This document shows positions 3,155-49,480 of a stretch of DNA of 50,417 nt, one piece after another. Source of the DNA: Bacillota bacterium. Its GTDB lineage: Bacteria > Bacillota > SHA-98 > UBA4971. Each line of letters starts with the position of its first letter. Position 1 is the stretch's first letter. The notes under the pieces were generated by a model. It ran no database searches and was not told the origin of the DNA. It saw only the letters and a program-made list of their open reading frames with translations. The translations under genes were made by a program, and so were the position numbers. The stretch covers positions 1 through 50,417 of the forward strand of contig JAAYXB010000052.1 in the NCBI GenBank assembly GCA_012516125.1. The letters are read 5' to 3'.

Positions 3155-3708
3155 GAACGGCACCTCGGCTTCAACCCCGCGCCAGGCCCAGCCCCAGCCC
3201 GGCCTCAGCCTCAGCCTCAGCAGCCTGTTCAGGCCCTGGGGACTCGACGGCATCGACAGGCGTAGGTGGTGTGGCTCATGCACGTCTTCCGGCGGCGTGG
3301 CCAGTGTTGGCGGTGTGGCTGGTGCGGTCGCCGTGGCCGGTGTGGCCAGTGTGGCCGGCGTGCGGCGGATGCGACATGTGAGCTAGACGGCACAGGTGGT
3401 TGGGTGCGGAACAGGCTCGGCGAATCATCGGCGACTCGCCAGGTAGGGTACGACGAACGAGGGCCGTATAAAGCAGCGATAGGTGACGGCAAGCGCAACA
3501 ATGGCACCGACAATGACAATGAACGACAATGACAGGGACAACGACAGGGACAGGGACAGGGACAGCGGCGGCAACGGCAGCGGCAGGGGCAGGAGCAGGG
3601 GCAGGGGCAGCGGCAGCACGGACACGCAATAGCCACTACCAACATACAGCGTGATGCGCAACAGAACTGACAAGAACGACAAGAGTGACAGATGAGGGTG
3701 GTCCGCTA
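3155..3708. repeat. Low-complexity intergenic spacer (degenerate GTGGCC- and GGCAGC-type repeats)
   Basis: This 550-bp spacer between the LacI gene and ribokinase has no supported gene. About 3295-3365 is a degenerate run of GGTGTGGC/GTGGCC units. About 3530-3620 is a degenerate hexanucleotide run of GGCAGC, GGGACA and AGGGGC units (for example CAGGGGCAGGAGCAGGGGCA). Purines dominate the second run on the plus strand. Its composition matches repeat blocks found inside coding linkers elsewhere in this window. Confidence 0.65.
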
Positions 3709-14553: not shown

Positions 14554-14752
14554 CTAAGTGATCGTGCGTCAGTTCTCGCCCATCTTCCAATCGTTGCTGG
14601 GTTGCCGGTGTTGCACTCGGGGACGGCGCCCCAAGCGGGGCGCGCTTCGCCAAAATCCGACCCGTCAAGCCAGTGGCCGGATTTTGACACCCCTCGTGCA
14701 ATCACCGGCAACCCCTCCCAAAAGTCGGGAACACTTCTGCATCCTCACTTAG
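14554..14752. repeat. Hairpin-forming dispersed repeat, copy 1 (MITE/REP-like)
   Basis: A roughly 200-bp imperfect palindrome. Its ends are inverted: CTAAGTGATCGTGCGTCAG at the left, and CTAAGTGAGGATGCAGAAG read on the minus strand from 14752. Inner arms pair again: TTGCCGGTGTTGCAC with GTGCAATCACCGGCAA, and AAAATCCG with CGGATTTT. A side hairpin GCGCCCC-AAGC-GGGGCGC lies in the left arm. It begins 21 bp after the prenyltransferase stop, and its right end supplies the stop codon of the convergent gene. Homologous to the repeat at 30906-31104. Confidence 0.7.
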
Positions 14753-17631
14753 ATACCCACAATCGCCGCGACTCTGTCTGCGTATTCCTGCGCCCTCCCG
14801 GCGGCGGCGTCCTCGGCAACGGCTTCAGAGTAGATATGGACGAACGGTTCCGCCGGGTCGGGGAGCACTAACAGCCAGCCATCGTCGAAGAAGAGGCGCA
14901 GCCCGTCGATGAACTCCCGCCGCATGTCGGCCGTTTCCTCGGCAAGCACGCGCATGACCCGGCCTTTGTGCTCCCACGGGCAGGACACCGAGCGGCGTAC
15001 CATGGGCGGGATTGCGAGGCTGTCCACGACATGCGACAGCTCCACGCCCTGCCGTGCGAGGAACTCAAAGACCTTTGCCAGCGAGAACATGGCATCGAAG
15101 GCCGGCTGGAACCTGGGAAAGATGAATCCACCCTCAGTGTCGCCGGCAAACAGGATGTCCTGCCCCGCCCTGGAGGCAAACTCCATCAGCGAGCGGGCGT
15201 CCTGCCTCGTTCGCACTATCCTCGCGCCGTTCTCCGCCGCGATGCGGTCCACCGCGCTCGTGGCGGCCACGGTCGCGACGACGAGCAGCCGACCGCCACT
15301 CGCGGAAGTAGAAGAACCAGGGGCACGGGTAGGGGCAGGGGCAGCGGCAGAGGCAGAGGCAGAGGCAGGGCCGGAGGTAGGGGCGGAGATAGAGAGAGAA
15401 GGAGAGGTGGAAGCGCCCACGGAGACGGAACCAGAGGCAGAACCAGAGGCGGAGGCAGAGGTAGGTATGGAGGTGGGGGTGGGGGTGGAGGTGGAGGTGG
15501 AGGCATCCGCAAAGGTAGAGCCCAGGGTGGCGCCAGAGGCAGAGGCGTGGATAGCGGCGGCCCCGCCACCAGGAACGGGAGCAGCAGCGGAGCGCCCGAA
15601 CCCATCGTGCGTCCCAGGCCCATCGTGCGTCCCAAGCCCATCGTGCGTCGCGAGCCCATCGCACATCCCGAACGCGTCGCGCGTCGCCAGCCAGACCACG
15701 GCCGCAAGCAGCGTGTTGCCCTCCACAACCCTCCCCATCTCATCCACAAGGGCTAGCCTCTCACCGTCGCTTTCTACGAATACCCCCATGTCAGCCTTTA
15801 GGGTGCTCACGGTCTCCGACAGCTTCCTGAGGTGGGCCTCCCGGTCATCGCGGGTCTTGGGGGCGCGCGAGTGATCGGGATACGCGTTCAGCGCAACCAT
15901 GTCGCACCCGAGCCGTCCGAAGATGCTCGGCAGGAACATGGAGAGTCTGCTGTATGCATAGTCCACCACCACGCTGAGACGGGAATGCGCGATGGCTCGC
16001 GCATCCACATAGTTGAAGAAAGCCTCCGTGTAAGGCTCGAGCACCCGCCCGGGGAACTCCAGTTTGCCTACTTCGTCCGCATCGGTACGGCGGAAGTCCT
16101 CGCGGAAAAAGATGTTCTCGATCTTGCGCTCGTGCGCCCTGGGCAGGTTGATGCCCTGACTGCCGAAAAGCTCGATCAGCGTGAGCCTGGGGTTATCTGG
16201 GGACACCCGGATGTGTACCCCTCCGTCCACGCCGAGCGTCTTGATGTTGTAGCGGCTGACCGGGAGGGGCGTGGAGCGGAGGTCGAAGATGTTCACGCCC
16301 ACCGTCATCAGGCCACAGATGATGGACCGGAGGATCATCCTCGACGCCGGGTGGTCGTCGCGGCTCGTGGTGACCGTCGCCCCCTTGCCGATGGAGCTTC
16401 CGAACGATGCCCCAAGCTTCATAGCGAACTCAGGTGTAAGCTCGATGTTCGTGAGGCCCGCAACGCCCCTGTCCTTGAAGATGGACCCGGGCCATTTCGT
16501 GCCCCAGATGAGGCTCATGGTCACGCGCGATCCCGGCTCGATGACCTTGTTCGGCCAAACCTTGATCTGAGGCTGGAGTATGGCGCCCTGTTCGATTCTG
16601 CACCTGTCACCCACCACGACGCCATCATGACACGTGACGAAGTCCTTGATAATGGCGTGCTGGCCTATGACGGCACCCCGCACCTCAGCGCCCTGGCCCA
16701 CGAAGGTGTCCTGCCAGAGGATGCTCCGCTGGATGACCGCATCCTTCTCGATTATGCAGTTATCCCCCATAAACGTGTACTCGAAGCAGCCAGCGCCTGG
16801 GCCTATCCGGCAGTTTCGGCCTATGACGAGCGGCCCCGAGAGGCAAGCGTTCGCGGCGATTTCCGTGCCCTCGCCGACCCAGATGTCGGCGCCGATCTTG
16901 TTGCCCGGGATCTCCACCTTCACCCTGCCCATCACGGCGTCCACCTGGGCCTGCCTGTATTGCTGGATGTTGCCCACGTCACACCAGTATCCGGACGCCA
17001 CGTGCGCGTAAAGCCTCTTCCCGTCGCGCAGAAGCGCCGGGAACACGTCCTGGCTGAAATCGGTGGGCTTTCCCGGATCTATGTAGTCGAGCACCTCGGG
17101 CTCGAGGATGTATATCCCCGTGTTGACGGTGTCGCTGAACACCTCGCCCCAGCTCGGCTTCTCCAGGAACCTGCGTATCCTGCCCTCATCGTCGGTGACT
17201 ACGATGCCGTACTCGAGCGGGTTATCAACCCGAGTAGTAACGATGGTCGCCACAGCCGACCTCGCCTCGTGAAACCTCACAGCTTCCTGAAGGTCGATGT
17301 CGGTGAGGGCGTCCCCGCTTATCACGAGCACCCGCTCCCGGCCGAACACCTCGGCAGCCTTCTTCACGCTGCCAGCCGTGCCGAGGGGCACGTCCTCCAC
17401 CGAGTAGGACAGGTGCAGGCCCAGCTCCGCCCCGTCGCCGAAAAAGCTCTCGATCTCGTCGGCGAGGTAATACAGAGTGACCGCGATGTCGGTGATCTCG
17501 TGGCGCTTCAGAAGCTCGAAGATGTGCTGGATGATGGGCTTGTTGACCACGGGCACCATCGGTTTCGGACGGTTACACGTGAGCGGACGCAGTCTGGTTC
17601 CCTCTCCACCTGCCATAACCACCGCTTTCAT
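14749..17631 (-). CDS. Fused sugar-1-phosphate nucleotidyltransferase / phosphomannomutase
   Basis: A 960-aa fusion. Residues 1-235 are a nucleotidyltransferase ([36 protein letters not shown]); 250-370 are a left-handed beta-helix; 380-960 form a phosphomannomutase-type domain. In the mutase part the active-site Ser is in [12 protein letters not shown], the metal loop is [11 protein letters not shown] (first acid Glu instead of Asp) and the sugar loop is [10 protein letters not shown]. It would interconvert mannose- or glucose-phosphates and make a GDP/NDP-sugar. A low-complexity insertion of about 120 residues splits the mutase domain. Neighbours are a GH57 enzyme and a GT4 synthase, pointing to alpha-glucan or mannan synthesis. 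Confidence 0.9.
15300..15672 (-). repeat. Low-complexity repeat block inside the mutase domain
   Basis: Two in-frame repeat types sit between conserved mutase motifs. At 15601-15672 an 18-bp unit (CCCATCGTGCGTCCCAGG) occurs four times and encodes DGLGTH-type hexapeptides. At about 15300-15560 degenerate 6-bp units encode Ser/Thr/Ala/Pro dipeptides ([22 protein letters not shown]). The block is about 120 residues (654-778). Confidence 0.8.
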
Positions 17632-32857: not shown

Positions 32858-35800
32858 TCACCACCTCGGTCCCCTTCCGATCCCGTTGCCATAGCGCCCG
32901 CTCCCGCTCGTGACAGCACGGCCGAACCGCGCAAGCTCGCGCCGCAGCCGGGCTTCGACGCTCTCAGGCAGGCGGCGCACGGGAAGGGGAATCGGCTCAC
33001 CGGCATCCGATTCACCAGCATCATCACCGGCGCCTGAGCGGCCCGACCCACCGCCCGGGCGCCGCCATGGGCCACGGATGGATCGCCCCAGGCCTCTACC
33101 CTGAACCATGCCCGAACCAGGCCCTGAGGCGAAACCTGAGCCTCGGCCTGAATCCGGACCCGCGCCTGGCTCTGGCCCTGGTCCTGGGCCTAGGCCTAGG
33201 CCTAGGCCTGGCCCTGGGTCTGAACCTGGACCTCCCCCTGGGGCTCGGCCGCCGCCCCCGCTCCCTGTCTCGGTTCTGTCCCCATCCGCCGCAAACGCTC
33301 CCGCCGACGCCGCGAAAGGCCCGGGAGCCCCATACCAGCCGACGCTTTCCCCCGGCGCCGCCCCCAGCGTGGACCTCTCTACGGGCTTGGGCGTATACGG
33401 CTCCATCTCCAGCAGATCGTGGAGGATGATGAGAGCGGCCTCCTTGTCCGGGACCCGGCCCCGCGGCGAGAGATCGGGGTCGTTCTGCGCGAAGGGCGGA
33501 ACCGGCGCGCCGACGCAGGACGGGCAGCCGTCCTCGCACTTGCACCCTTTCACGATCTCCAGGCATGCCCTGAGCACGTCCTCGAGCGACCTGTAAGCGC
33601 GCTCGGCAAACCCCACCCCGCCGGGATAGCGATCGTACACAAACAGCGTCGGTGAGCCGGTGTTGAGCGAGTCCACGACGGCCCCCACGTCCCTGGGGTC
33701 GCACATGGCATAGAGCGGCACCACCTCCGTGATGACGTTGCCGATCCCGTAGAGCCCCTCGGATGGGTCCCTCCCCCACCTGCGCACCAGGTTGAGCGTG
33801 GAGATGGGCGGTACCAGCCAGAAGGCGACTGTCCCCATGACCTGCGGCGGAAGGCTCACCTTCCCGAAACCGATGCTCTCGCGACCGTGGAACTTGATCT
33901 TCTTGAACATGTACACCAGCGAGGTCACGGTAACGTCCCCGAACGACGCCGTGGCCTTGTGGAACTTCGCGCTCTCCTGCTCGTTCTCGATCTTCACCGT
34001 GGATTCAGAGATAGACTGCGTGAAGTAGTCGACGTCGGCCTTCTCCACGAAGGCGACCTTCTTGTCCACATCGAGCTGGGACACGAAATACGTCTCGCCG
34101 TCGTGCAGGTAGATCGCCTCAGGATGGATCTGCTCGAAGGCGGAGAGCTCGTCCATGGTACCGATTACGCGGTTCGCCGCCGTGTCTTTCACGGAAGGCG
34201 GCCGGCGGTCGCGCCCTACCGCCGTCTGCGCCGGGTCCTGTGTCGTGTCCACGATCGTGTAGGTGTTGTCGGACGCGTTGCGCAGCTTGACCGCCTCCGA
34301 CGGGTAGGACGGGTGCGACCAGTACCACCTGTTCCCGCGACGCACGACTTCCCGCTGCTCTTCGAGGATCTCGAGGATAGCAGGCATATACTCGCCGAAC
34401 CGCGCGATGTCCTTCGCCCCTAGCGGCAGCTCGAACGCGGCGCAGCGCAGGTGTCTTGCCAGGATATACGGATTGTGAGGGTCGATGACCGCGCTTTCCG
34501 TCGCCCGCCCGAAGAAGTACTCGGGATGGTTCATGAGATACTGGTCTATGGGGGTGGACTGGCCCACCAGGATCACGAGTGCCTCCTCTTGCCCCCGCCC
34601 CGCCCGCCCGGCCTGCTGCCAGGTGCTGGCGATGGTGCCCGGGTAGCCCGTGAGAATGGCCGCGTCGAGGCTGCCGATGTCGATGCCGAGCTCAAGGGCG
34701 TTCGTGGACGTGACCCCGAGCAGCTCACCGGAGAACAGGCGCCGCTCTATCTCACGTCGCTCCTCCGGAAGGTAGCCCCCGCGATACGGCTTGATGGCAC
34801 GTGCCAGCGACGGGCTTATTTGCTGGAGACGCTCCTGGGCGAATCGGTAGATTAGTTCCGCCACCACGCGCGCCTTCACGAAAGTGATGGTCTGGACCCT
34901 GTCCCGGACAAGCTCGACCAGGAGCCGCTCCGCCTCGACGCTCGAGCTTCCTCGTTCCACCCGCGCCGCGTCCACGAACGGGGGGTTCCAGAACACGAAC
35001 TTTTTCGGCCCTCGCGGCGCGCCGTCGTCGTCGACGAGCGTGACGGGGCGATCTATGAGCTTTTCCGCAAGCTCCTTCGGGTTTGCGATGGTCGCGGAGC
35101 AGCAGATGAACTGCGGGCTTGAGCCGTAGTGCTCACAGATGCGTTCGAGGCGCCGGATGACACACGCGACGTTCGAGCCGAACACGCCTCTGTACGTGTG
35201 CATTTCGTCGATGACCACGAACGCCAGGTTCGCGAAGAACGGCCCCCACGACGGGTGCCTCGGCAGAATGCCCTGGTGGAGCATGTCAGGGTTTGTGAGG
35301 ATGATGTTCCCCTCGTCGCGTAGCTTACGCCTGGCGTTCGGGGGCGTGTCGCCGTCGTAGGTGCCTGCCACGATCGGCATGTCAGGATCGATCTCCCGGT
35401 AGCGGAGAAGGCCCCGAAGCTGGTCTTGAGCAAGCGCCTTCGTGGGAAACAGGTAAAGCGCCTTCGCCCCCGGGTCGACGGCGAGCCTCTCGAGGACGGG
35501 CGCGTTGTAGCAGAGGGTCTTGCCGCTCGCGGTGGACGTCACGATAGCGACATCGCGCCCCTCCCGGATCGCCTGTATCGCCTGGGCCTGATGGGTGTAG
35601 AGCCGCTCGATGCCCACCTTCGCCAGGATCGCGGCCACGCGCGGGTGAAGCGGCGGCACGACATCGCCGTAGCGCGCCTGCCGCGCAGGAATGTTCTCGA
35701 CGTGGACAATCTGGCCCCGGTACTCTGGTGCAAGCTTGAGCCGCTCTATGAATCTCGCCGCATCCATGTCCTTCGTGGCGCGACCTCCCGGCACGGCGGG

Positions 35801-37552: not shown

Positions 37553-39190
37553 TCACGGGATAACCAGCGTGTCGCCGACCTCGATGCGATCGGGATCAGG
37601 AATGGAGTTCGCCTGCACGATCGCGGCGACCGTCGTACCGTAGCGCTGAGCTATCTGGTACAGAGTCTCGCCTATCTGCACTACGTGGACCCGCCCTGAT
37701 GACGGAGCCTGCCCTCCGTCCGCCAGCGGACCCGGCAGCTCGGATGGCCCAGGCGCCGCGGGCACCGTGCCACCCCCAGCCTCTGTCGCCGTGTCGTTCA
37801 CACCCACGACAGCCGACACAGTATCCACACGGGTCACCATGGCCCAGCCCCGGAGCACGATCCTTACGTTGGCGGCCCTTGGCTCGACTGGCACGGCAAT
37901 CACCCTCACGACGTCCACGTCACTCACTGCAAAGAGCGTCGGTATTACCCCCGGAATCGCGAGGGTCACCGAAAATGGCACGGTCTCCACAGTGGCGAAC
38001 ACTCTCTGCGACGGAAGCGCCGCGAACAGCACTGTGACCCTGAGAATCCCCTCCACGATCACCACGCCGTCCAGCACGACCGTCTTCGTTACCTTCGCCC
38101 GCGCGAAAGCTTCGATTACCCTGCCGATCTCCGGTAGACCCGCCGGAACGATCACGCGTACCGAGACGGTAGAGTTGTCCTCTACCTGGCCAACGATCTC
38201 CTCCACAAGGAAGTCCCTGGTCACAGGGATTAGAAGGTCCGGAAGATCGTCAATAGCGGTAACGAGCGTAAGATCCTTGTCGACCGTGACGACCACCGAT
38301 ACGCGGAGCACCGCCCTTACCCTCAGCGTGCGTGCGTTTACGATCTCCGCCTCCGCAGCCTCGACCTGCACCGACGCGAACGCGAACATCCCCGGCTGCA
38401 CGCCCGGCAGGCCCACGATGGTGCTGAAGCTGAGGACACCGTCCACCGAGAACACAGGCTGCCCGGGGCTGATGGCCACATAGAGTATGCGTACCGAGAC
38501 CGCCCCGTTCACAACGATCTTGTTGTGCAGCACCTTTGTCGCGGTGACAGACGCTGCCGCGTCTGTCCTGATGATCCGGGACGCGCCGGGCTTGTCAGGC
38601 GGTATCGATATCGTCCCAACGGCGATGGTCTCAGCCTCTCCCTGCAGCACAGCTCGCTCCACAGTGACCACCCGTCGCTTCACAACGGGCACCACGGGCA
38701 CCTTCACCGTGGGTACAACGATTGCGGGCGGCACTTCGACCACGACCTCGGTTATCTCTTCCCTGAGCACCCGGACCCTGAGAGACACCAGCACATTCAC
38801 CTCGACAGTCCTCGCGTCGATGAGCCGTGACGTTGCGAAAACGCTCGTTACGAGCACCTCCGGGATCATGCCAGGGAAGACTCCCGGGACGCTCACACTC
38901 CCGAACAAGGACAGCGTGCCCTCGAACGCATGTACCGGTTGTGACGGTGCCGTGGACACGTAGAGAATGTTCACATCCGCGTTTCCCCGGATGACCACCG
39001 CCCCCGGTACGACCGTGATCTGGGTGACAGCGACCCGCGCCTGGGTATCGAGGATCGACGCAATATCCGGCTTCGGAGGCGGCACGACCAGGCGCCCAGT
39101 GGCTACAATGCTGGCGCTGACGTCGGCGACTACCACCTCGACCTTCACTTTTCTTCGCGGGAGACCCGCTACGGTCACACCTGAAGACAC
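37553..39190 (-). CDS. SPOCS-domain protein with C-terminal LysM
   Basis: 545 aa with three successive SPOCS (DUF3794) units and a LysM module at the end (HVVQIGETLYQIAQRYGTTV then QANSIPDPDRIEVGDTL). SPOCS units show VVIRGNADVNILYVSTAPSQ, IVVNGAVSVRILYVAISPGQ and VIVEGILRVTVLFAALPSQ. The architecture resembles SipL, which links the spore coat to the forespore surface through SpoIVA. GTG at 39190 is chosen because AAGGAGGG stands 6 nt upstream; a start at 39256 would bury that site. No signal peptide, consistent with mother-cell synthesis. A Gly/Pro linker precedes LysM. Last of three SPOCS genes in a row. Confidence 0.9.
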   Translation of the reverse strand: MSSGVTVAGLPRRKVKVEVVVADVSASIVATGRLVVPPPKPDIASILDTQARVAVTQITVVPGAVVIRGNADVNILYVSTAPSQPVHAFEGTLSLFGSVSVPGVFPGMIPEVLVTSVFATSRLIDARTVEVNVLVSLRVRVLREEITEVVVEVPPAIVVPTVKVPVVPVVKRRVVTVERAVLQGEAETIAVGTISIPPDKPGASRIIRTDAAASVTATKVLHNKIVVNGAVSVRILYVAISPGQPVFSVDGVLSFSTIVGLPGVQPGMFAFASVQVEAAEAEIVNARTLRVRAVLRVSVVVTVDKDLTLVTAIDDLPDLLIPVTRDFLVEEIVGQVEDNSTVSVRVIVPAGLPEIGRVIEAFARAKVTKTVVLDGVVIVEGILRVTVLFAALPSQRVFATVETVPFSVTLAIPGVIPTLFAVSDVDVVRVIAVPVEPRAANVRIVLRGWAMVTRVDTVSAVVGVNDTATEAGGGTVPAAPGPSELPGPLADGGQAPSSGRVHVVQIGETLYQIAQRYGTTVAAIVQANSIPDPDRIEVGDTLVIP

Positions 39191-39635
39191 CTCGCTCCCT
39201 CCTTCCCGCAAGGTCTTTACCAGGATATGATATGTTTGGGAGCGTCCGGGCGCCACCGCCCAGCTAGTCGCCCGGTCGCCGCATGGTCAGCGGTCTCGGC
39301 GACCACCAGTCGGGGGCCACCCTGCTGCTGATGGCCGCCTGCTGGCCCCCAGCAACTGGCCGCCGGCCGAAAGATGGTGGGGCCTGGACACCGAATGCTG
39401 GAGTCAGGTTTCGGAAAGCAGGATGCGGGGGGCTGAAAGCGGGAGGCTGAAAGCAGGATGCGAGAAGCTGGAGGCTGCCCGTCGGGCTTTTCCCCCCGGC
39501 AGCCCCTGACAGGCCCGAAAGACGTAGCGAGGGACCCCAGCGGGAGCGCTGGAGGTCCCTTGTTCCGGGGCCTTGGTCGGATGTCAAGCCCAGGTGTAGT
39601 GGTGCGTGTCTGCCGCGGACGACCGGCCCAAGTTA
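39191..39635. other. Intergenic region with strong stem-loop at 39530-39561
   Basis: No supported gene. AGGGACC...GGTCCCT at 39530-39560 encloses CCAGCG and CGCTGG, giving a long interrupted stem in the gap after the second SPOCS gene. About 39400-39480 holds repeated GAGGCTGAAAGCAGGATGC-like units (two to three). The stem could end transcription of the upstream SPOCS gene, though no U-run follows on either strand. Confidence 0.45.
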
Positions 39636-41054
39636 TCAGTTCATATCCCGGAACTCCTCGGGCACAAGGACGTCGATGACTACGTGCTTCTGCACGGTCT
39701 TGGTGACCTTGACGAACACCTCGATGATCGCCTCGACCAGCACGTCCCGGGTGCCGACCTCGGGCGGCGGCGTCACCCCGACCGGCAGGAGCTGAGCGGT
39801 GGCGAACTCCACCCTTGGCCGGACGAGGATGTTCATCCCAGGGAACGCGCCCGGCAGGTCCACGAACGTCGTGAAGGGCACCTCGAGGTGCATGTGATGG
39901 ACCGGCTGGTCCGGCAGAGCCGCCACGTATATCACCTGGAGGACAAGCCTCCCCTCAAGGATTACCTTGCCGTCGAGGATGTCCGACCGGGTTATCTCCA
40001 CCGTGGAACTGAAGACTCTGATGATCTTGGTCGCAGCCGGCTTCTCTTGAGGAATCGTGACTTCCTGGCGGATGTTAACCTGTTGGGTCACCTCGTTGAC
40101 AACGTCTTCGATGGCGACCAGCTGCCGCACAGCATTGATGGGAATCCTGTCGGACCTAACGTCCGTCACGACCCTCATCTGCTGGATCTCTGTGACTTTC
40201 GCAAATACGCTTAAGACCAGGTCTTGCATGATCGTCATCGGGTCGACGATGGTCGCCTGCGCGAACTCCACGGTCGGGAAGAGCTCAACCATGAGGCCGG
40301 GCATGGCTCCCGGGATCCTGATGTTAACGAGGAAGTTCACCGTCTGATGCATCTGGTGGACGGGCTGGTCGGGCAGATTCGCCACGTAGAGTATCTGGGT
40401 CCTGATTTGCCCCTGGACGATCACGAGATCCGGGATCACCCTCACCTCACTCGGCAACACCTCGGTACTGATGATACCGAGGATCTTCAAAACCGGCGGT
40501 TTGCCGGTCGGTACCGACAGGGTGTTGCTCAGTATCACCTGACCCGTGTTCTCGCCGACCACCCGCTCGACTCGCACAAGATTCTTCTCGACTTTCACCG
40601 GGATGCTCTTGAACATCACGTCGGTGACCACGTCAAGCTGCACGAGCTGCGTCACCTTGACGAAGAGCTCAATAATGAGTTCGATTTCAACTTCCCTCGG
40701 GTTTCTGATCACTATGTCGGAGAACGTGACCCTCGGCCTGACGATTACGGTCATCCCCGGCTGCGCTCCCGGGACGTCCACGAACTGAAGGAAGCTGATG
40801 GTGTGCTCCATATGATGCACCGGCTGCTCGGGCAAGGCGGCGACATAGATGGTCTGCACTGTCGCAGTCCCCTCCACGACCACCTTGTTCGGTAGCGGTG
40901 TCCCGGTCGCTGAGACTGTTACGTTGACGATGCTCAAGATCTTCTGGACGTCGGGCTTCCCGTTGGGCACCGACTGCACGCTTCTCAGAGTGACGGTTGC
41001 CACCCTCTCGCCGACGACCTCGAAGAGCTTCAGCCGCTCCCTCCTTAGAACCAT
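39636..41054 (-). CDS. SPOCS-domain protein, three repeats, no LysM
   Basis: 472 aa made of three SPOCS (DUF3794) units. Each has the core pattern VVEGTATVQTIYVAALPEQPVHHM, IVQGQIRTQILYVANLP and VILEGRLVLQVIYVAALPDQ (shown in part), followed by FVDVPGAQPGM-type and VKVTxxxQ segments. It lacks the LysM of its two neighbours. ATG at 41054 has GGAGGGAGAAGG upstream. Likely a structural protein of the spore envelope, by family; not a known enzyme. Gene order suggests origin by duplication of the neighbours. Confidence 0.88.
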   Translation of the reverse strand: MVLRRERLKLFEVVGERVATVTLRSVQSVPNGKPDVQKILSIVNVTVSATGTPLPNKVVVEGTATVQTIYVAALPEQPVHHMEHTISFLQFVDVPGAQPGMTVIVRPRVTFSDIVIRNPREVEIELIIELFVKVTQLVQLDVVTDVMFKSIPVKVEKNLVRVERVVGENTGQVILSNTLSVPTGKPPVLKILGIISTEVLPSEVRVIPDLVIVQGQIRTQILYVANLPDQPVHQMHQTVNFLVNIRIPGAMPGLMVELFPTVEFAQATIVDPMTIMQDLVLSVFAKVTEIQQMRVVTDVRSDRIPINAVRQLVAIEDVVNEVTQQVNIRQEVTIPQEKPAATKIIRVFSSTVEITRSDILDGKVILEGRLVLQVIYVAALPDQPVHHMHLEVPFTTFVDLPGAFPGMNILVRPRVEFATAQLLPVGVTPPPEVGTRDVLVEAIIEVFVKVTKTVQKHVVIDVLVPEEFRDMN

Positions 41055-41192
41055 TTCCCTTCTCCCTCCCTTTCCAACAATCGTGCTTTCCTGAACTCCA
41101 AAACGAGGCGACGTCCGGTCGGCTCCCTGACTGCCCTGGACAACGCGCGCCCGCACTTGCGCTCCGCCAGGCTGACATGATGCCCGCCGCTC

Positions 41193-41231
41193 GGGCAAAG
41201 GCCACGGGGACCGTGCCCGTGGCCTTTGCCC
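41193..41231. other. Perfect 16-bp stem-loop between SPOCS genes
   Basis: GGGCAAAGGCCACGGG (41193-41208), loop GACCGTG, CCCGTGGCCTTTGCCC (41216-41231). It is the strongest simple hairpin in the window, 105 bp past the stop of the first SPOCS gene and 139 bp before the next start. No U-run on either side, so it may be a processing or stabilising element between the genes rather than an intrinsic terminator. Confidence 0.65.
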
Positions 41232-43241: not shown

Positions 43242-44327
43242 CTATCCTGCAACAGACGCCGAGAGTTCGGGATCAACGCGCGTCCCCGCACCCACGACGC
43301 TCGACGGCGCCACCACCATCGAATCCAGGCAGCATGCGTCCCCAATCCGCGCCGCAGCCGCAACGATGCACCTGCGGACCTTCGCGCCCTTGCCCACCTG
43401 GACGCCGTTGTGGAGCACCGACTCCGACACGTGCGCCCCTTCACCTACGCTGCACCCGTGCCCAAGGACGACCCGCGGGCCCACCTCCGCCCTCGCCTGA
43501 ATCGCCACGTGGTGTCCCATGACAACCGGCCCCGCGAGACGGGCCGTCCTGTGGACCACCGCATTCTTCCCGCTCCACACCCCCCGCCCCACCTTGTGCC
43601 CTGGGATCATCACGTCGATCCTCCTGTCGAGGATGTCCATGTGAGCCTTCAGGTAGTTGCGCAGGGTGCCGATGTCGAGCCAGTAGCCGCGGCTCGCGTG
43701 CGCCCGCACTGCGGCGCCCTTCGCTAGCAGCGCGGGGATCACTTCCCGCTCGAATGAGATCTCGCGGCCTTGCGGCAGGTCCGCGATGACCGACGGCTCG
43801 ATCATATATATACCGGCGTTTATCGTGTTGACCGCCACTTCGTCCCAGCCGGGTTTCTCCAAGAAGCCTGTCACGAGGCCCGTTGAATCGACGAGAACCA
43901 GCCCGTACGCGGCCGGGTCATCCACTGTGACGGTGGTTATGGTCACATCGCTTCCTCGTTCCTCGTGCTCGGCAATGAGCCTCCCGAGGTCCATGTCGGT
44001 CAGCACGTCGCCGTTGAGCACCAGCACCCGCTCACCGCCCAGGCACGTCTCGCAGTTCTTTATGGCGCCGGCAGTGCCCAGCGCGACGTCCTCCACGGCG
44101 TACTCGATGGACACGCCCCACCTGGCGCCGTCCTGCAACCGCCGGGAGAACTCGGGCGCCATGTAATTCAAGCTGAGTACGATCCGGTGGATCCCGTGAG
44201 TCCGGAGGAGTTCGATCTGATACTCAATAAACGGCCTTGTAACCATCGGGACGAGGCCCTTGGGGTTATCGTGCGTGAGGGGCGCCAGGCGCGTGCCCCT
44301 GCCGCCGGCAAGGATTATCGCTTTCAC
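43242..44327 (-). CDS. Mannose-1-phosphate guanylyltransferase-like nucleotidyltransferase
   Basis: 361 aa. N-terminal nucleotidyltransferase: AIILAGGRGTRLAPLT (8-14 core), GLVPMVTRPFIEYQ, EDVALGTAGAIKN and LVLNGDVLTDMDL. C-terminal left-handed beta-helix repeats (VVHRTARLAGPVVMG, IGDACCLDSMVVAP). It would activate a hexose-1-phosphate, most likely mannose to GDP-mannose given the adjacent GDP-mannose dehydratase-like gene, whose stop it overlaps as ATGA. Related to the N-terminal part of the fusion at 14749 but without the mutase. Confidence 0.9.
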   Translation of the reverse strand: MKAIILAGGRGTRLAPLTHDNPKGLVPMVTRPFIEYQIELLRTHGIHRIVLSLNYMAPEFSRRLQDGARWGVSIEYAVEDVALGTAGAIKNCETCLGGERVLVLNGDVLTDMDLGRLIAEHEERGSDVTITTVTVDDPAAYGLVLVDSTGLVTGFLEKPGWDEVAVNTINAGIYMIEPSVIADLPQGREISFEREVIPALLAKGAAVRAHASRGYWLDIGTLRNYLKAHMDILDRRIDVMIPGHKVGRGVWSGKNAVVHRTARLAGPVVMGHHVAIQARAEVGPRVVLGHGCSVGEGAHVSESVLHNGVQVGKGAKVRRCIVAAAARIGDACCLDSMVVAPSSVVGAGTRVDPELSASVAG

Positions 44328-45679
44328 CGGCGATTCCCCCCGCTTCCGCTCCGGGCTGCGTCTCCGTCCCCGTCGCCGTCGCCGTGCCCGCGCCCGCGCC
44401 TGTCGTCGCTTCCGCCTTCGCCTCCGCCGCTACTCCTGCCTTCGCCACTGTCTACGCTGCTACCACTGACGCCATTGCTGTCGCTGCCGTTGGTGCTAGT
44501 GTTGGTACTGATGCTGACGCTGGTGCCGGCGCTGGTGCCGACGCTGGTGGTGGTGCTGGTGCCGGCGCTGGTGCCGGCACTGGCGCTGGAGGCGGTGCTG
44601 GTGATGACGCTGGCACTGGCGCTGGCGCTGTTGGCATCGGTGACGTTGGTGGCGCCGGTGATGCTGGTGACCCTGGTGGCGCTGCCGTACTCCTGGCGGC
44701 TCTCTGTGCATGCGGCCCTGCACGCCACCCTGCCGCGCCAGTACTCCAGCAAGTCCGCGAGGGTTTTCTCAAACGGGATGAGCGGTTCCCAGCCGGTCCT
44801 CCGCCGGAATTTCGTCGAGTCGCCCAGCAGCACGGGAACGTCCGACGGCCTCATCCTCCCGGGGTCATGCTCGATCCGTATCGGAACCGTGGACATGGCA
44901 AGGAGCATCTCGGCAACTTCGGAAATCCGATGGTCGCGCCCGCTGGCAATGACGTATACCTCGCCCGGCTCCCCGCGCTCGAGCGCAAGCCAGTAGGCTC
45001 GCACGACGTCCCGCACATCGGTGAAATCGCGCCTCGCCTCGAGGTTCCCCACCTTGAGAACAGGCTCGGCGAGCCCGTGCTCTATCTCGGCGATCTGCTT
45101 CGCGAAGCTGGATGTCACGAACACCTCCCCGCGCCTCGGCCCGGTGTGGTTGAAGGTGCGCGTACGGACCACCCGCAGGCCGTAGCTGCGGAAATACTGG
45201 TACCCTAGGAAGTCCTGGGCGATCTTGCTCACTGCGTAGGGGCTCTGCGGGCGGAGCGGGTTGTCCTCGTTTATGGGCACCTCGTCCTCGTGCACGAGGC
45301 CATATTCCTCCGATGAGCAGGCAATCTGGATGAGCGGGTCTATCCCGGCACGTCGCACGGCCTCGAAGAGGTTGAGCTCCCCGAGGATGTTGTTCATCAG
45401 GGTCTCCGCCGGGGCGAGCCACGACGTTGGCACGAAACTCTGCGCGGCAAGATGAAAAATGAGATCCGGTCGCACCTTCTGGACCGCCTGGTCCACGGCG
45501 GTCGCGTCCATGAGGTCGCACTCCACGAGCCTTATCCGGTCCCGGATGCCCTCGATGTTCTCGGTTCTGCTCCTCCACCTCACCGTTCCGTAGACTTCTA
45601 CGTCTTTGCGACTCAGCAGGTACTCAGCCAGGTGACTCCCGGCAAAGCCGGTGATCCCCGTGACAAGGGCCCTCACCAT
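44324..45679 (-). CDS. GDP-mannose 4,6-dehydratase-like SDR with Ser/Thr tail
   Basis: Residues 1-325 form an extended short-chain dehydrogenase: NAD(P) loop VTGITGFAGSHLAEYLL, HLAAQSFVPTSW, CSSEEYG, Tyr148 and Lys152 in YAVSKIAQD, NHTGPRRG and ARRDFTDVRDVVRAYW. This pattern fits GDP-mannose 4,6-dehydratase or GDP-6-deoxymannose reductase (deoxyhexose synthesis). The remaining 125 residues are a low-complexity Ser/Thr/Ala tail ending in GDGDGDGD, unusual for this family. ATG at 45679 has GGAGGAGAC upstream. Coupled to the nucleotidyltransferase that follows. Confidence 0.9.
   Translation of the reverse strand: MVRALVTGITGFAGSHLAEYLLSRKDVEVYGTVRWRSRTENIEGIRDRIRLVECDLMDATAVDQAVQKVRPDLIFHLAAQSFVPTSWLAPAETLMNNILGELNLFEAVRRAGIDPLIQIACSSEEYGLVHEDEVPINEDNPLRPQSPYAVSKIAQDFLGYQYFRSYGLRVVRTRTFNHTGPRRGEVFVTSSFAKQIAEIEHGLAEPVLKVGNLEARRDFTDVRDVVRAYWLALERGEPGEVYVIASGRDHRISEVAEMLLAMSTVPIRIEHDPGRMRPSDVPVLLGDSTKFRRRTGWEPLIPFEKTLADLLEYWRGRVACRAACTESRQEYGSATRVTSITGATNVTDANSASASASVITSTASSASAGTSAGTSTTTSVGTSAGTSVSISTNTSTNGSDSNGVSGSSVDSGEGRSSGGGEGGSDDRRGRGHGDGDGDGDAARSGSGGNRR
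44330..44700 (-). repeat. Ser/Thr/Ala repeat block forming the dehydratase tail
   Basis: Degenerate hexamers on the plus strand (GCTGGT, GGTGCT, GTTGGT, GCCGTC) encode ANSASASASV, SAGTSAGTSTTTSVGTSAG, ISTNTSTNG and GDGDGDGD on the minus strand. The frame stays open to a normal overlapping stop with the next gene, so this is a real protein tail rather than read-through after a lost stop, unless recently acquired. Confidence 0.78.
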
Positions 45680-45719: not shown

Positions 45720-47321
45720 TCAGGCGGGCAAAACGGAGTCGCGGAGGGCTTTGAACCTGGTCCTGAAGGTGTCCCATATGAGTGGGTCCTCATCCCCGAG
45801 GTCTGCTATGGCAAGCCCTGCCAGGTTGAACCTGAGGACGAGATCCACGTAACTTGCGACGCTTGTTGCATCCATGAAGAAGACCGTGTGGTTCACGCGG
45901 AAGGACCTGTACCTGAACATGCAGGCACCGCCGGGCTCGGCGCGCACCACCGATGGCTTGTAGATGTCCAGGATGTCCGCTATCTCGGAGTGCGCGCGGC
46001 GCATCGGTGGAGCCCCGGGCGCGGCCGAGAAGTCGATGCCGAAGAGCGGAACACCGAGGACCATCTTCCACGGTGGGACCAGACGCACTATGCCCTTGAG
46101 GACGGCGCGGGCTCGTGCGGGCGATGCAGGCGGTGCGGGCACAGCGAGGCGCTCCGGCTCCTCATGCAATCGCACGATGATCTGTCTTACGATCCTGGCG
46201 AGCTCCTGATACTCCAGTGGGCTTCTCCCGGCGCCTTCACCTTCCGCGCCTGGTGCGGGGATCTCGAGGCTGAGGTCCCGCCCCTCGCGTTCGAGCACGG
46301 AGGCAAGCTCGCGCACGAAAGAGGTGAACGCATATCCGTCCCCAGGCCCGGGAGCACTTACCGAGAGGACGATGCCGTGAGCGCGGCTTCGCGCCGAGGC
46401 GCCTGCTATGCCCTTTATCGCGACGCGGCGCGCCGCAGCATCCATCAATACCGCATCGAGCGTCGCCTCGCCTGCCTCGTCGCTCACGCACGTGCGGTCG
46501 CGCTCGCGCTCCCGTCGCCGCTCACGTTCGCCGTCGGCGTCGAGGTTAGCGTTGGCGTTGGCATTGGCATTGGCATTGGCATTGGCGTGCGCGTGCGCGT
46601 TCGCGTTCGCGTTCGCGTTCGCATTGGAGTTGGCGTTGACAGGGGCATTCGCGTTGATGCCCGCGTTCGCCTTGGCGCTAGCGTTAGCGCTGGCTTGGCT
46701 CCGGCGGTCCGGGGGGAACGGGCGCGAGCCGAGAGCGACCACCGGCACTACCCGGATGTCAGCCAGGGACGCAAGGGCTGTAACCCTCTTGACCGGCTCG
46801 CCTGTGATCGTGCCATCAGCGTTCAGGGTGAACCAGCGCGGGGCCACCATGGAAATGAACGCCAGGTGACGTTCATAGGAATCCCAGGACCTCTCGGCAT
46901 CATCGCCTCCGGCGCAGTACGCGAGGAGGCGCGAAACCGGAATGTCGAGGCATTGGCCCTCGTGTACCTCGGGGTCTGGAAGCCGGTTAGCCTGGAGTAG
47001 AAGCTCGATTGGGATATTGTAGCGCCTGGCGATGTGGGCGCATGTCTCGCCGCTGGCCACAAAGTGCCTGAGCACCGGCTTTGCAAGCCCGGAACGGATC
47101 ACGGCAAACACTTCTTTGCCCGCGATGCCGTCCACCCGGAGCCTGTGGGCTTTCTGAAGGTCCCTCACTGCGTCCTTGGTCAGGATTCCGAAAACGCCGT
47201 CGATCTCGCCGGTGTAGTAGCCCAGACGCGATAGCTGCTCCTGGAGCAGGGCCACATCGCGACCCTTCATTCCGAAGCGGAGAAACCGCCTCCACAGATT
47301 TTCGCCCTGGGACTCAGCCAT
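45720..47321 (-). CDS. PG-binding/LysM protein with degenerate GH18-like domain
   Basis: 533 aa. Residues 15-75 are a peptidoglycan-binding domain (GRDVALLQEQLSRLGYYTGE, FGILTKDAVRDLQKAH); 83-130 a LysM (VASGETCAHIARRYNIPIE, CLDIPVSRLL); the rest resembles the GH18 barrel of spore hydrolases such as YaaH (WFTLNADGTI, YAFTSFVRELASVL, WKMVLGVPLFGIDF, DILDIYKP). Where GH18 enzymes carry DxxDxDxE this one reads GIVLSVSAPGPGD, so the catalytic Glu seems absent. An Asn-Ala repeat occupies 210-258. ATG at 47321 has GGAGGG upstream. Probably a binding or structural cortex/coat protein. Confidence 0.82.
   Translation of the reverse strand: MAESQGENLWRRFLRFGMKGRDVALLQEQLSRLGYYTGEIDGVFGILTKDAVRDLQKAHRLRVDGIAGKEVFAVIRSGLAKPVLRHFVASGETCAHIARRYNIPIELLLQANRLPDPEVHEGQCLDIPVSRLLAYCAGGDDAERSWDSYERHLAFISMVAPRWFTLNADGTITGEPVKRVTALASLADIRVVPVVALGSRPFPPDRRSQASANASAKANAGINANAPVNANSNANANANANAHAHANANANANANANANLDADGERERRRERERDRTCVSDEAGEATLDAVLMDAAARRVAIKGIAGASARSRAHGIVLSVSAPGPGDGYAFTSFVRELASVLEREGRDLSLEIPAPGAEGEGAGRSPLEYQELARIVRQIIVRLHEEPERLAVPAPPASPARARAVLKGIVRLVPPWKMVLGVPLFGIDFSAAPGAPPMRRAHSEIADILDIYKPSVVRAEPGGACMFRYRSFRVNHTVFFMDATSVASYVDLVLRFNLAGLAIADLGDEDPLIWDTFRTRFKALRDSVLPA
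46545..46690 (-). repeat. Asn-Ala dipeptide repeat block
   Basis: Plus strand GCATTG and GCGTTC hexamers in tandem (46555-46640) encode NANANANANA and AHAHANANA on the minus strand. The repeat runs about 45 residues with few interruptions, making it the most regular hexamer block in the window. Confidence 0.85.
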
Positions 47322-47467
47322 CTTTCAAGACACCCTCCGCGCAGCGAAGCCGATGCTCGCTGCAAGCTCATGGTGCATTGTATGCCCGGACGCGCCCGCG
47401 TGTTACGCCCTGAAGGCTTCTCCCCGCGCCGGCGCGCAGCGTAAGTCCGGGGATTAATGCCGCCTTC

Positions 47468-47574: not shown

Positions 47575-48261
47575 TCATCTTCGATGTTGGCTATTCATAG
47601 TGGAGAGCTGGCGCAACCGCTCCAGCACGCGCCGGATCCAGCTGTGACGGCAGCGGTCTTCCAACTGGGCGCCGCCTGGCGCCGGTTGTTCTGGCTGTTC
47701 TGGCACCCCCGGCTCCTCCGGCCGATCCTCTTCTGCAAGTTGCGAATTCCCGCACCCCTCTCGCGTCTCAACGCCGGTGACGACCGGAAGCACCACGGTC
47801 TCCAGCGCGAGCCCGTCAATGCGGACAGTCGCGACGACACCTATCTTATGTGCCCCGCCACCGGGCTTGTGTGCCCTGCCACCGGCTGCGCACGCGTCGC
47901 CGCCATCGACCCAGGCCCTCTGGAGTTCGATACCGAAACACGCCTCAACGCGCATACCAGAGCGAAAAGCCGCATCCTCGACGAAGACCCGAAGATCCTC
48001 AGCCCAGGAAACTGCCCGCACCAGTCCCCCGGCCACCAGGCAGTAGGCCCACACCATGAGGGTTGCCGACGCCAGGGCCGATCCGTCAAACACCTCCCAC
48101 GACGGGTCGAGCACATCGATGGCGAGGCCTACGAGCTCCTGCGCCTGCTCCGGCGCTTGCTGCGACAGGTACACCCCGACCTCTCGCGCAAGGCGGCACA
48201 CGACCCGCTCGACGCGCAGACTCTCTGTTCTGACGATCACATCGTCGAGCCTTCCCAGCAT
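47575..48261 (-). CDS. Divergent single SPOCS-like protein
   Basis: 228 aa, no obvious match at first reading. Position by position it resembles one SPOCS unit: LRVERVVCRLAREVGVYL against LKVEQVVGETTARKVL of the gene at 41337, then EVFDGSALASATLMVWAYCL against LIRGKVLVEGTIRVRALYVG, followed by RVEACFGIELQRAWVDGG and VATVRIDGLALETVVLPVV. The C-terminus is a disordered Glu/Pro segment then a basic helix. ATG at 48261 has GGGGAGG 7 nt upstream. Its place among spore-envelope genes supports the reading. The SPOCS relation is inference. Confidence 0.6.
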   Translation of the reverse strand: MLGRLDDVIVRTESLRVERVVCRLAREVGVYLSQQAPEQAQELVGLAIDVLDPSWEVFDGSALASATLMVWAYCLVAGGLVRAVSWAEDLRVFVEDAAFRSGMRVEACFGIELQRAWVDGGDACAAGGRAHKPGGGAHKIGVVATVRIDGLALETVVLPVVTGVETREGCGNSQLAEEDRPEEPGVPEQPEQPAPGGAQLEDRCRHSWIRRVLERLRQLSTMNSQHRR

Positions 48262-48311
48262 CCCCGCGCCTCCCCGGAGTCGAACCCGGCCCTGTGCTGC
48301 GCCACATCGCA

Positions 48312-48327
48312 CTGAATGGGTATTCAG
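48312..48327. other. Short inverted repeat in the leader of the SPOCS-like gene
   Basis: CTGAAT (48312-48317), GGGT, ATTCAG (48322-48327), about 50 bp upstream of the start on the minus strand. Possible operator or small stem; no further support. Confidence 0.3.
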
Positions 48328-48454
48328 GATGGCAAGGGCATATTCTGCTGGCAACCCGCCGGGCCGCTGGCCTGTTAGTCTGCCGGCCCGGTGCCCCGCT
48401 CAGGCCGGGTTCCCGCCGCACGGCACGACGAGGTAGGATGACGCATGGCCGCAT

Positions 48455-49480
48455 TCAAGGTGGGCTTGTCACCTTGTCCGCCAGAACATCGGCATAGGCA
48501 GCGGCGGTCACCCGGGCGGCATGGTCCCACGTGAAGCGCTCCCTCACAAGGGCTGCAAGCTCCGGCTGTCGCGGTGCCCTGTAAGCCGCCACGACCGCAG
48601 CCTTTATCGACTCGACGTCGGCGGGGTCGCAGTACCACGCAAGGTCTCCGAAGTACTCGCGGGCAGTGCCCCTGTCGGTTGACACGATGTTGCAGCCAGC
48701 CATCGCGGCCTCAAGGCTTGCGAGGCCCGGCGTCTCGAACCAGCTCGGCAGCACGTGGACCCGCGCCGCGGCATAGGCCCCGGCGATCTGCCGCTGGGGC
48801 ATGAAGCCGAGGAAGTGATGGGACGAGTCAGCCTCCTTCCTGCAAGCCTCGAAGTAGAACGGATCGTTCACAGGCCCTATGAACACTACGGGAAACCCCA
48901 GGCCCCGCGCGGCTCTCACGAGGGCAAGCTGGTTCTTTCTGGGCGAGATCCTGGCGCAGCACAGCACGAAATCGCGCACCCCGAACCTCGAGACGAACTC
49001 CCCCGGATCTGCGTGCGCGAAGCCCGGGTCTGCGCCGTTTGGCACCACACGAAAGGGCACCATCACTCCCAGGTCCCTCTGGATGAGGCGCGCCTCGGCC
49101 TCGGCGTTGGGGAGGAGCATGGCCGCGGACTCTACCACCCTGCGACGTAAGGGATTATCCTGCCGCCAGTATCTCAGCAGCGGGCCCTGTTGTCGGGGAT
49201 TCTCGTGCATCATGTACTCCTCGGGGTTCCAGTAGATGGGCGACACCACCACAGGCTTACCGCGCCTTATGGTGTTCTCGCACTGGGCGGCGGTCTCGGC
49301 CACTCTGGTCAGGTTGAAGAGGTGCACCAAATCATAACCCTCAAGGTCCGGGGCAAGCTCACTGCTATGATCCACGTCCACCCCAAGCGCCTGGAGCGCC
49401 CTCTTCGTCTCCAGGACCTGCACCGTGTCGCCTGCAGGGAGGACAAGGAGATCGGCTCTGCTCTGGAAAAGGACCCGCAC
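48455..49480 (-). CDS. GT4-family glycosyltransferase
   Basis: 341 aa GT-B glycosyltransferase. DLVHLFNLTR, LLPNAEAEARLI, VVPNGADPGF, FVLCCARISPRKNQLALV and the E-x7-E motif ETPGLASLE are seen; the catalytic core is normal, though the N-terminal domain is short. GTG at 49480 follows GGAGG by 7 nt. It would transfer a sugar from a nucleotide donor, plausibly the GDP-mannose derived sugar made by the genes at 43.2-45.7 kb, onto an envelope polymer. Likely part of the same minus-strand locus as the SPOCS genes. Confidence 0.9.
   Translation of the reverse strand: MRVLFQSRADLLVLPAGDTVQVLETKRALQALGVDVDHSSELAPDLEGYDLVHLFNLTRVAETAAQCENTIRRGKPVVVSPIYWNPEEYMMHENPRQQGPLLRYWRQDNPLRRRVVESAAMLLPNAEAEARLIQRDLGVMVPFRVVPNGADPGFAHADPGEFVSRFGVRDFVLCCARISPRKNQLALVRAARGLGFPVVFIGPVNDPFYFEACRKEADSSHHFLGFMPQRQIAGAYAAARVHVLPSWFETPGLASLEAAMAGCNIVSTDRGTAREYFGDLAWYCDPADVESIKAAVVAAYRAPRQPELAALVRERFTWDHAARVTAAAYADVLADKVTSPP

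Follow-up and report, generated by a model that had tools for sequence, protein, structure and literature searches.

The window analysed here, a contig of 50,417 nt (C37) taken whole from the 3.24-Mb, 98-contig genome of a Bacillota bacterium, carries a gene whose product resembles a spore-associated glycoside hydrolase of family 18 (GH18) that has been disarmed. We call it the pseudo-GH18 gene (positions are given in Table 1). Sequence comparisons support its descent from a GH18 protein of the SleL/YaaH type; throughout the lineage the catalytic residues have been lost, and the protein is retained under selection. The gene is also linked to sipL and preceded by a conserved promoter-like element, and its product lacks a hydrophobic N-terminus. 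Support is good for both the catalytic loss and the spore setting. We hold a role in the spore envelope to be highly probable, and it is probable, if a little less so, that the protein belongs to the SipL/SpoIVA layer as a non-catalytic coat protein.

The change is plainest in the catalytic strand. For comparison we used GH18 proteins bearing the D-x-E signature, presumed active as judged by sequence; at this strand they have GxNxDxE, not the textbook DxxDxDxE. Their GVNIDFENVP aligns without a gap with GIVLSVSAPG of the window protein, so that S320 takes the place of the Asp and S322 that of the Glu, and neither the D-x-E at the end of β4 nor the catalytic Glu of SleL/YaaH is present. Further Asn residues are replaced by L197 and V318, an Arg by G329 and an Asp by R379; among the aromatics, Tyr has become G410 and F427, and Trp F431 and A506. 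At all of these positions the replaced residue is identical in 10/10 D-x-E-bearing proteins. The YD motif has lost its Tyr as well, which is now H386. A preliminary description had characterized the protein as lacking the catalytic acid of this strand. The Glu has indeed gone, with S320-V-S322 replacing D-x-E, but it is not the sole loss, since Asp, Asn, Tyr and Trp positions have changed too. Sequencing error or a frameshift as the cause of the altered strand is ruled out by its recurrence in independent genomes. The protein is very probably non-catalytic, and by its sequence does not belong among the working SleL/YaaH or GH18 enzymes.

The fold was assigned by profile comparison. Alone, the window protein scores 25.0 bits against the Pfam family Glyco_hydro_18 (PF00704) at residues 290-505, under the curated cut-off of 29.6, and no NCBIfam family scores above its cut-off. 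A profile of 16 relatives (A1) matches the YaaH/SleL-type structures 4s3k (2.1e-49) and 4s3j (3.4e-41) in the PDB, together with YdhD (3cz8, 7e-36). Aligned by hhalign with a profile of 11 D-x-E-bearing GH18s, A1 gives a probability of 100 and an E value of 1.5e-76, and the alignment runs co-linearly through the N-terminal modules and the barrel until the protein ends. GH18 barrel homology and the LysM plus GH18 architecture of SleL/YaaH are thus both present. The Pfam, hhalign and PDB matches bear out the peptidoglycan-binding and LysM modules and the GH18-like barrel of the preliminary description, and the spore-hydrolase origin that it proposed agrees with the SleL/YaaH matches and with the location in a coat locus with SipL-type genes. 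PG_binding_1 lies above its cut-off in 28/28 family members scanned. Pfam GH18 scores across the family run from none to 67.1 bits (G013), those of three D-x-E-bearing GH18s from 112.9 to 119.2. An AlphaFold2 model, made from an alignment of the window protein, L039 and seven GH18 pieces from viral contigs, has a barrel-like order of strands and helices; its mean predicted local distance difference test score of 47.4 and predicted template modelling score of 0.37 make it too poor for overlay, so that the fold assignment rests on the profiles. In viral contigs the pseudo-GH18 profile found five loci, with every match confined to residues 4-87, the PG_binding region; among the matches listed in named genomes is a Myxococcota protein, aligned to residues 16-128 only.

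The loss is not peculiar to this copy. The window's class comprises 17 genomes in our collection, of which 15 have a full or near-full copy. The copies in G012, where the C-terminus alone is visible at a contig edge, and in G008, where sipL starts 124 nt from the edge, have possibly just been cut. D-x-E is intact in 0/15 class members. Fourteen lack the Glu, whose fate in relatives the preliminary description had proposed to check, and G010 has the Glu but no Asp; a loss unique to the window copy is thereby ruled out. Other GH18s from the same searches keep D-x-E in 40/40 rows (39 distinct, as two rows are the same locus). These rows are ten chosen GH18s and the best GH18-profile match in 30 of the loci L074-L108, with the sipL-linked L093 and L094 left out and L089-L091 not sampled. 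In a tree built without the catalytic-strand columns, 28 pseudo-GH18s fall on one side of one branch (Shimodaira–Hasegawa-like approximate likelihood ratio test 81); this was a quick, unrooted search with a long-branch warning, and it omitted the degenerate G082, G153, G230, G120, G200 and G271 beforehand as well as eleven members found later.

The C-terminal parts of 44 of 45 collected proteins (G375 excluded) were compared by hhalign with the D-x-E-bearing GH18 profile. GH18 ancestry had a probability of at least 90 in 33 and fell below it in 11 (two f97 proteins 88.9, five f22 proteins 76.0, G200 9.9, G230 4.8, G271 1.0 and G082 0.3), and a reversed-profile control never rose above 0.9. Of the 33 supported members 21 have neither residue, five the Asp alone, six the Glu alone (G010 and five f56 copies, in the latter as WE) and one, G315, both, although the alignment of the catalytic columns is itself unsure in the most divergent members. 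Because of G315 and the six Glu-bearing members, residual activity is possible in some relatives. They are also the evidence for the view that these proteins are still hydrolases, by an altered or weakened mechanism or in some relatives only. We find this very improbable, given that the window copy has neither residue and that Asp, Glu and Tyr occur together in 0/33 supported members versus 10/10 D-x-E-bearing relatives.

Three groups of relatives deserve separate mention. The sipL-linked G315 protein (L221:1730-3580) keeps D-x-E in the sequence VDVDLE, with Arg in place of the Tyr, and may be an intermediate; its existence rules out the loss of D-x-E in every sipL-linked member. In all of the f56 copies (L056, L109, L110, L111 and L112) the Asp is lost and the Glu lies in a conserved WE, where it may have acquired a new role. 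The Trp of β8 is retained in two f2 copies.

The barrel is under purifying selection. The ratio of non-synonymous to synonymous substitution rates (dN/dS) in its C-terminal part is 0.14, 0.09, 0.22, 0.09, 0.26, 0.29 and 0.23 for seven pairs; it is 0.16-0.31 in the N-terminal part (7/7 pairs) and 0.12-0.25 around the catalytic strand in five pairs. No in-frame stop was found among the 15 class copies. At ten positions the class has a near-invariant residue that is not the commonest in the D-x-E-bearing set: Y330, S334, W418, P456, R472, S473, R475 and K524 occur in 15/15 members, R470 and A501 in 14/15. Among 10 D-x-E-bearing GH18s S334 occurs three times, R470 twice and R472 once, and Y330, W418, P456, S473, R475, K524 and A501 do not occur. 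The basic stretch RYRSxR (R470-R475) is a candidate for a new contact surface. These data bear on whether the gene is a decaying relic without present function, which would fit the great divergence of the family (11/44 C-terminal parts below 90% GH18-ancestry probability) and its accumulation of low-complexity inserts. We give that idea almost no credence in view of the uninterrupted reading frames, the C-terminal dN/dS of 0.09-0.29, the new near-invariant residues and the conserved element upstream.

The gene lies in a spore-coat locus. Four SPOCS-domain genes share its strand in the window; two of them have the SipL architecture, and the pseudo-GH18 gene is two genes away from the first of these listed in Table 1. 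SipL of Clostridioides difficile, as described in PMC6436350, consists of three DUF3794 domains and a C-terminal LysM, binds SpoIVA through this LysM and is required for heat-resistant spores. SpoIVA is present in 17/17 genomes searched. Relatives' loci have a SPOCS gene upstream in 13/14 cases (the fourteenth starts at a contig edge) and a SipL-type gene downstream in 12/14. In genus g1 and family f3 a dehydratase and a transferase gene separate the pseudo-GH18 gene from sipL; the pair was not found in genus g2 loci.

How widespread is the association with sipL? A SipL profile (A2) has a match at E ≤ 1e-60 in 98 of 398 phylum genomes, and the surroundings of all 98 were examined by script for a pseudo-GH18-type gene on the same strand ≤ 5 kb upstream of sipL, using a search profile made from members already found, which favours its own kind. 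The script flagged 43 loci, rejected 49 and left six with too little sequence to judge. By hand we removed G212 and G183, where the gene is 4.7 and 2.8 kb away and the N-terminal modules alone match, and added G200, where the frames overlap. Such a gene then accompanies sipL at 42/92 loci. It is adjacent in 34 of these (five in the class and 29 outside), with spacing from a 120-nt overlap to a 528-nt gap; the remaining eight are class genomes with two intervening genes. Outside the class, a PG_binding gene whose C-terminal part is degenerate stands directly before sipL in 29 of 82 sipL genomes, five of the 82 being unjudgeable, and in 16 families; descent from GH18 has support in 17 of these neighbours, from 10 families. 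With f1 and f3 included, such a gene is found close before sipL in 18 families and has supported GH18 ancestry in 12. The G375 protein is split across two reading frames, the G206 protein is a fragment at a contig end, and in G027 such a protein occurs on a 3.15-kb contig without sipL.

The linkage is relevant to another possible function, that of a decoy for an active cortex hydrolase or a regulator of it, occupying its sites or binding the enzyme and so preventing premature cutting of the cortex. The window's genome does have two other GH18 genes with intact D-x-E, and regulatory pseudoproteases, CspA and CspC, are known from C. difficile spores. Yet the partner gene is sipL, which acts in coat assembly, and none of the neighbours scanned was recognised as a hydrolase gene; we consider a decoy or regulator unlikely.

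Upstream of the gene is a putative sigma-K-like promoter. The motif GTMAC-N17-CATAMAAT was read by eye from the upstream regions, and was therefore defined after the sequences had been seen. All family f1 loci that include the start (10/10) have it 54-57 nt ahead of the ATG; it has no other occurrence in 310,716 bp of 15 sources, and 11/13 of its columns are invariant compared with 1/117 flanking columns. The element resembles mother-cell promoters of C. difficile as given in PMC3789822, where -10 boxes are CATATTAT and CATATAAT and the sigma-K -35 box is AC. Its conservation favours expression in the mother cell, a conclusion that it supports but does not prove. A hydrophobic N-terminus is lacking in 14/14 class proteins (best 12-residue hydropathy in the first 40 residues 0.02-1.13), and present in 2/2 D-x-E-bearing PG_binding-LysM-GH18 relatives checked (2.6 and 2.9).

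We can suggest how such a protein might work. It would be expressed in the mother cell from the sporulation promoter, remain in the cytosol owing to the missing signal peptide, and join the SipL/SpoIVA base layer on the forespore. There its PG_binding_1 and LysM modules would grip peptidoglycan or partner proteins, and the emptied barrel would act as a rigid platform whose conserved surface, RYRSxR included, may contact another coat protein or a coat glycan. We put the chances of this anchor-and-platform arrangement being right in its details at about even. By analogy, the pseudo-GH18 with SipL and SpoIVA might perform the task proposed for SafA with SpoVID. More tentatively, the gene may represent an undescribed and widespread family of GH18-derived pseudoenzymes that are regular partners of SipL, joining the SpoIVA/SipL layer with either the cortex or a coat glycan as SafA does for SpoVID, with the barrel as a platform for protein-protein contacts.

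A different proposal is that of a spore chi-lectin, whose dead barrel would still use its former cleft to bind cortex or coat glycan, making the protein a multi-site binder of peptidoglycan or polysaccharide. Dead GH18 lectins such as YKL-40 are known in animals and plants, and they keep an aromatic sugar cleft. With these the window protein shares a GH18 barrel that has lost its catalytic Glu; PG_binding_1 in 28/28 members and the sugar-nucleotide and glycosyltransferase genes in the locus would suit such a function. The aromatic cleft is not kept in the window copy, however (A506, F431, H386, F427), and in genus g2 loci no sugar genes were found next to the pseudo-GH18 gene. Judged by its cleft, the window copy is not a classical chi-lectin, and we rate this proposal as rather unlikely. 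Since the ancestral sugar cleft is not preserved, the binding protein envisaged in the preliminary description would need a different surface or partner.

Several observations weigh against a non-catalytic coat protein that acts with SipL. The relatives that retain D-x-E or the Glu have been noted. dN/dS around the catalytic strand reaches 0.42 and 0.85 in two pairs (27 codons). A pseudo-GH18-type neighbour is missing at 50/92 sipL loci (49 by script alone), so SipL does not generally need it. GH18 ancestry is unsupported for 12 of the 29 neighbours outside the class (11 below 90% probability, plus the untested G375); these are PG_binding proteins in which the origin of the C-terminal part is uncertain. 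In f2 (G013, G015) the pseudo-GH18 gene is not beside sipL, which lies elsewhere, and it retains dehydratase, glycosyltransferase and SPOCS neighbours. The promoter-like element is missing in 4/4 f2/f3 loci. In the window alone its single motif match compares with 0.75 expected (0.77 at up to two mismatches), and CATACAAT occurs twice with 0.36 expected, a count reached in 6/100 shuffles; as this is not beyond chance, the weight of the element rests on its conservation. A canonical sigma-E promoter, with an ATA-type -35, matched 0/14 upstream regions. Finally, LysM here need not mean peptidoglycan, because the LysM of SipL is described as binding SpoIVA (PMC6436350).

The pseudo-GH18 can be set beside several known proteins. 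Like the cortex-lytic enzymes SleL/YaaH (4s3k, 4s3j) it has LysM and a GH18 barrel in co-linear arrangement and a spore setting, and its barrel matches YdhD (3cz8). Unlike them it lacks the catalytic Asp and Glu and the cleft residues, and it has an additional N-terminal PG_binding_1 and linkage to SipL-type genes. The closest D-x-E-bearing relatives of its architecture are the G079, G036 and G117 proteins (L018, L028 and L031), with the same PG_binding_1-LysM-GH18 order as read from the alignment (Pfam was run on the G079 protein alone). In contrast to the window protein they keep D-x-E, and the two checked have a hydrophobic N-terminus; a BLAST search with the window SPOCS proteins had no match within the 20 kb surrounding the G079 copy. 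The CspA and CspC pseudoproteases of C. difficile have a fold unrelated to GH18, and are likewise spore pseudoenzymes retained for a non-catalytic role. SafA lacks both a GH18 barrel and PG_binding_1, and we claim no homology with it beyond LysM. It is described as a Bacillus subtilis coat protein that binds peptidoglycan and SpoVID, working with the SpoVID layer, and it resembles the window protein in having LysM and no transmembrane segment (PMC8265636). In Moorella, PMC8745062 places a GH18 protein, moth_0063, among putative spore coat proteins, and reports that no SipL equivalent was found in that Moorella species. By its description moth_0063 could be a named relative of the pseudo-GH18, which we offer as a weak lead.

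Table 1. Features of the window, with the basis of each assignment.
Feature	Position	Strand	Basis
Pseudo-GH18 gene, 533 aa: PG_binding_1, LysM, GH18-derived barrel without catalytic residues	45720..47321	-	ATG start
PG_binding_1, residues 20-74	47100..47264	-	Pfam 66.7 bits
LysM, residues 88-128	46938..47060	-	Pfam 35.6 bits
Asn-Ala low-complexity insert, residues 212-259 (48 aa), β3-α3 loop	46545..46688	-	Hexanucleotide array
Former catalytic strand GIVLSVS, residues 316-322; S320 and S322 in place of Asp and Glu	46356..46376	-	Profile alignment
RYRSFR basic motif (RYRSxR in class), residues 470-475	45897..45914	-	Class conservation
Putative sigma-K-like mother-cell promoter, GTAAC-N17-CATACAAT, 55 nt before ATG	47377..47406	-	Family conservation
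SipL-type gene, three SPOCS stretches and C-terminal LysM, 544 aa	41337..42971	-	Pfam SipL 189.2, LysM 59.9 bits
SPOCS-domain gene	39636..41198	-	
Second gene of SipL architecture, SPOCS and C-terminal LysM	37553..39256	-	
SPOCS-domain gene, truncated by contig end	49685..50413	-	
Sugar nucleotidyltransferase	43242..44327	-	
GDP-mannose 4,6-dehydratase-type gene with low-complexity tail	44324..45679	-	
Conserved gene of unassigned family, between glycosyltransferase and pseudo-GH18	47575..48354	-	
Group 1 glycosyltransferase	48455..49480	-	

The preliminary description had also noticed an Asn-Ala repeat of about 45 residues before the catalytic strand. This insert is present, slightly longer than had been thought, after β3 and about 55 residues ahead of the strand. 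It is encoded by a GTTGGC-type 6-bp tandem array at 46545-46638, and readings of 12 and 18 bp extend to 46656. The nearest relative, G004, has a similar yet different run and G001 has Ser-Gly-Asn and Arg-Glu runs; other relatives have short inserts or none. A general functional importance of the insert is rejected, since genus g2 lacks it and other members of the window's genus have unrelated low-complexity sequence in its place. For the closest pair its dN/dS is 0.20, and five others give 0.59-0.86; these values come from few codons and an unsure alignment, with one further pair giving none. The insert is a species-level hexanucleotide expansion in an expansion-prone loop, and since it is confined to the window species and G004 it does not explain the catalytic loss. 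Hexanucleotide tandem arrays recur in the window, for example at 3531-3617, 15318-15503 and 33164-33233, which suggests a genome prone to 6-bp expansions.

Some further features of the locus may be recorded. The gene between the glycosyltransferase and the pseudo-GH18 matches no Pfam or NCBIfam family at E 0.01, and is syntenic with the pseudo-GH18 gene in the genus and the family at 29-81% identity. Most relatives' loci have one further SPOCS gene upstream, cut off in the window by the contig end; the SPOCS cluster is possibly an expansion of the SipL family. The dehydratase-type gene ends in a low-complexity tail of about 130 Ser, Thr, Ala and Gly residues (repeats at 44513-44684), which is shorter in G004 and is replaced by other tails or none in four other genus members. 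Elsewhere, 14749-17631 on the reverse strand encodes a 960-residue protein in which sugar nucleotidyltransferase and phosphoglucomutase/phosphomannomutase domains are fused.

Dead GH18s have precedents, as do spore pseudoenzymes, and our search of the open-access literature found no description of a GH18-derived pseudoenzyme tied to sipL, as seen here across many families. Annotation of such genes as chitinases or cortex-lytic enzymes should be avoided, a warning made necessary by Pfam GH18 scores that reach 67.1 bits in the family even without the catalytic pair. Binding of the SipL LysM to peptidoglycan is described in PMC8265636 as still untested. With its peptidoglycan-binding modules and disarmed barrel, encoded near sipL, the pseudo-GH18 is a testable candidate for the part that attaches the coat to the cortex in spore formers with SipL in place of SpoVID.

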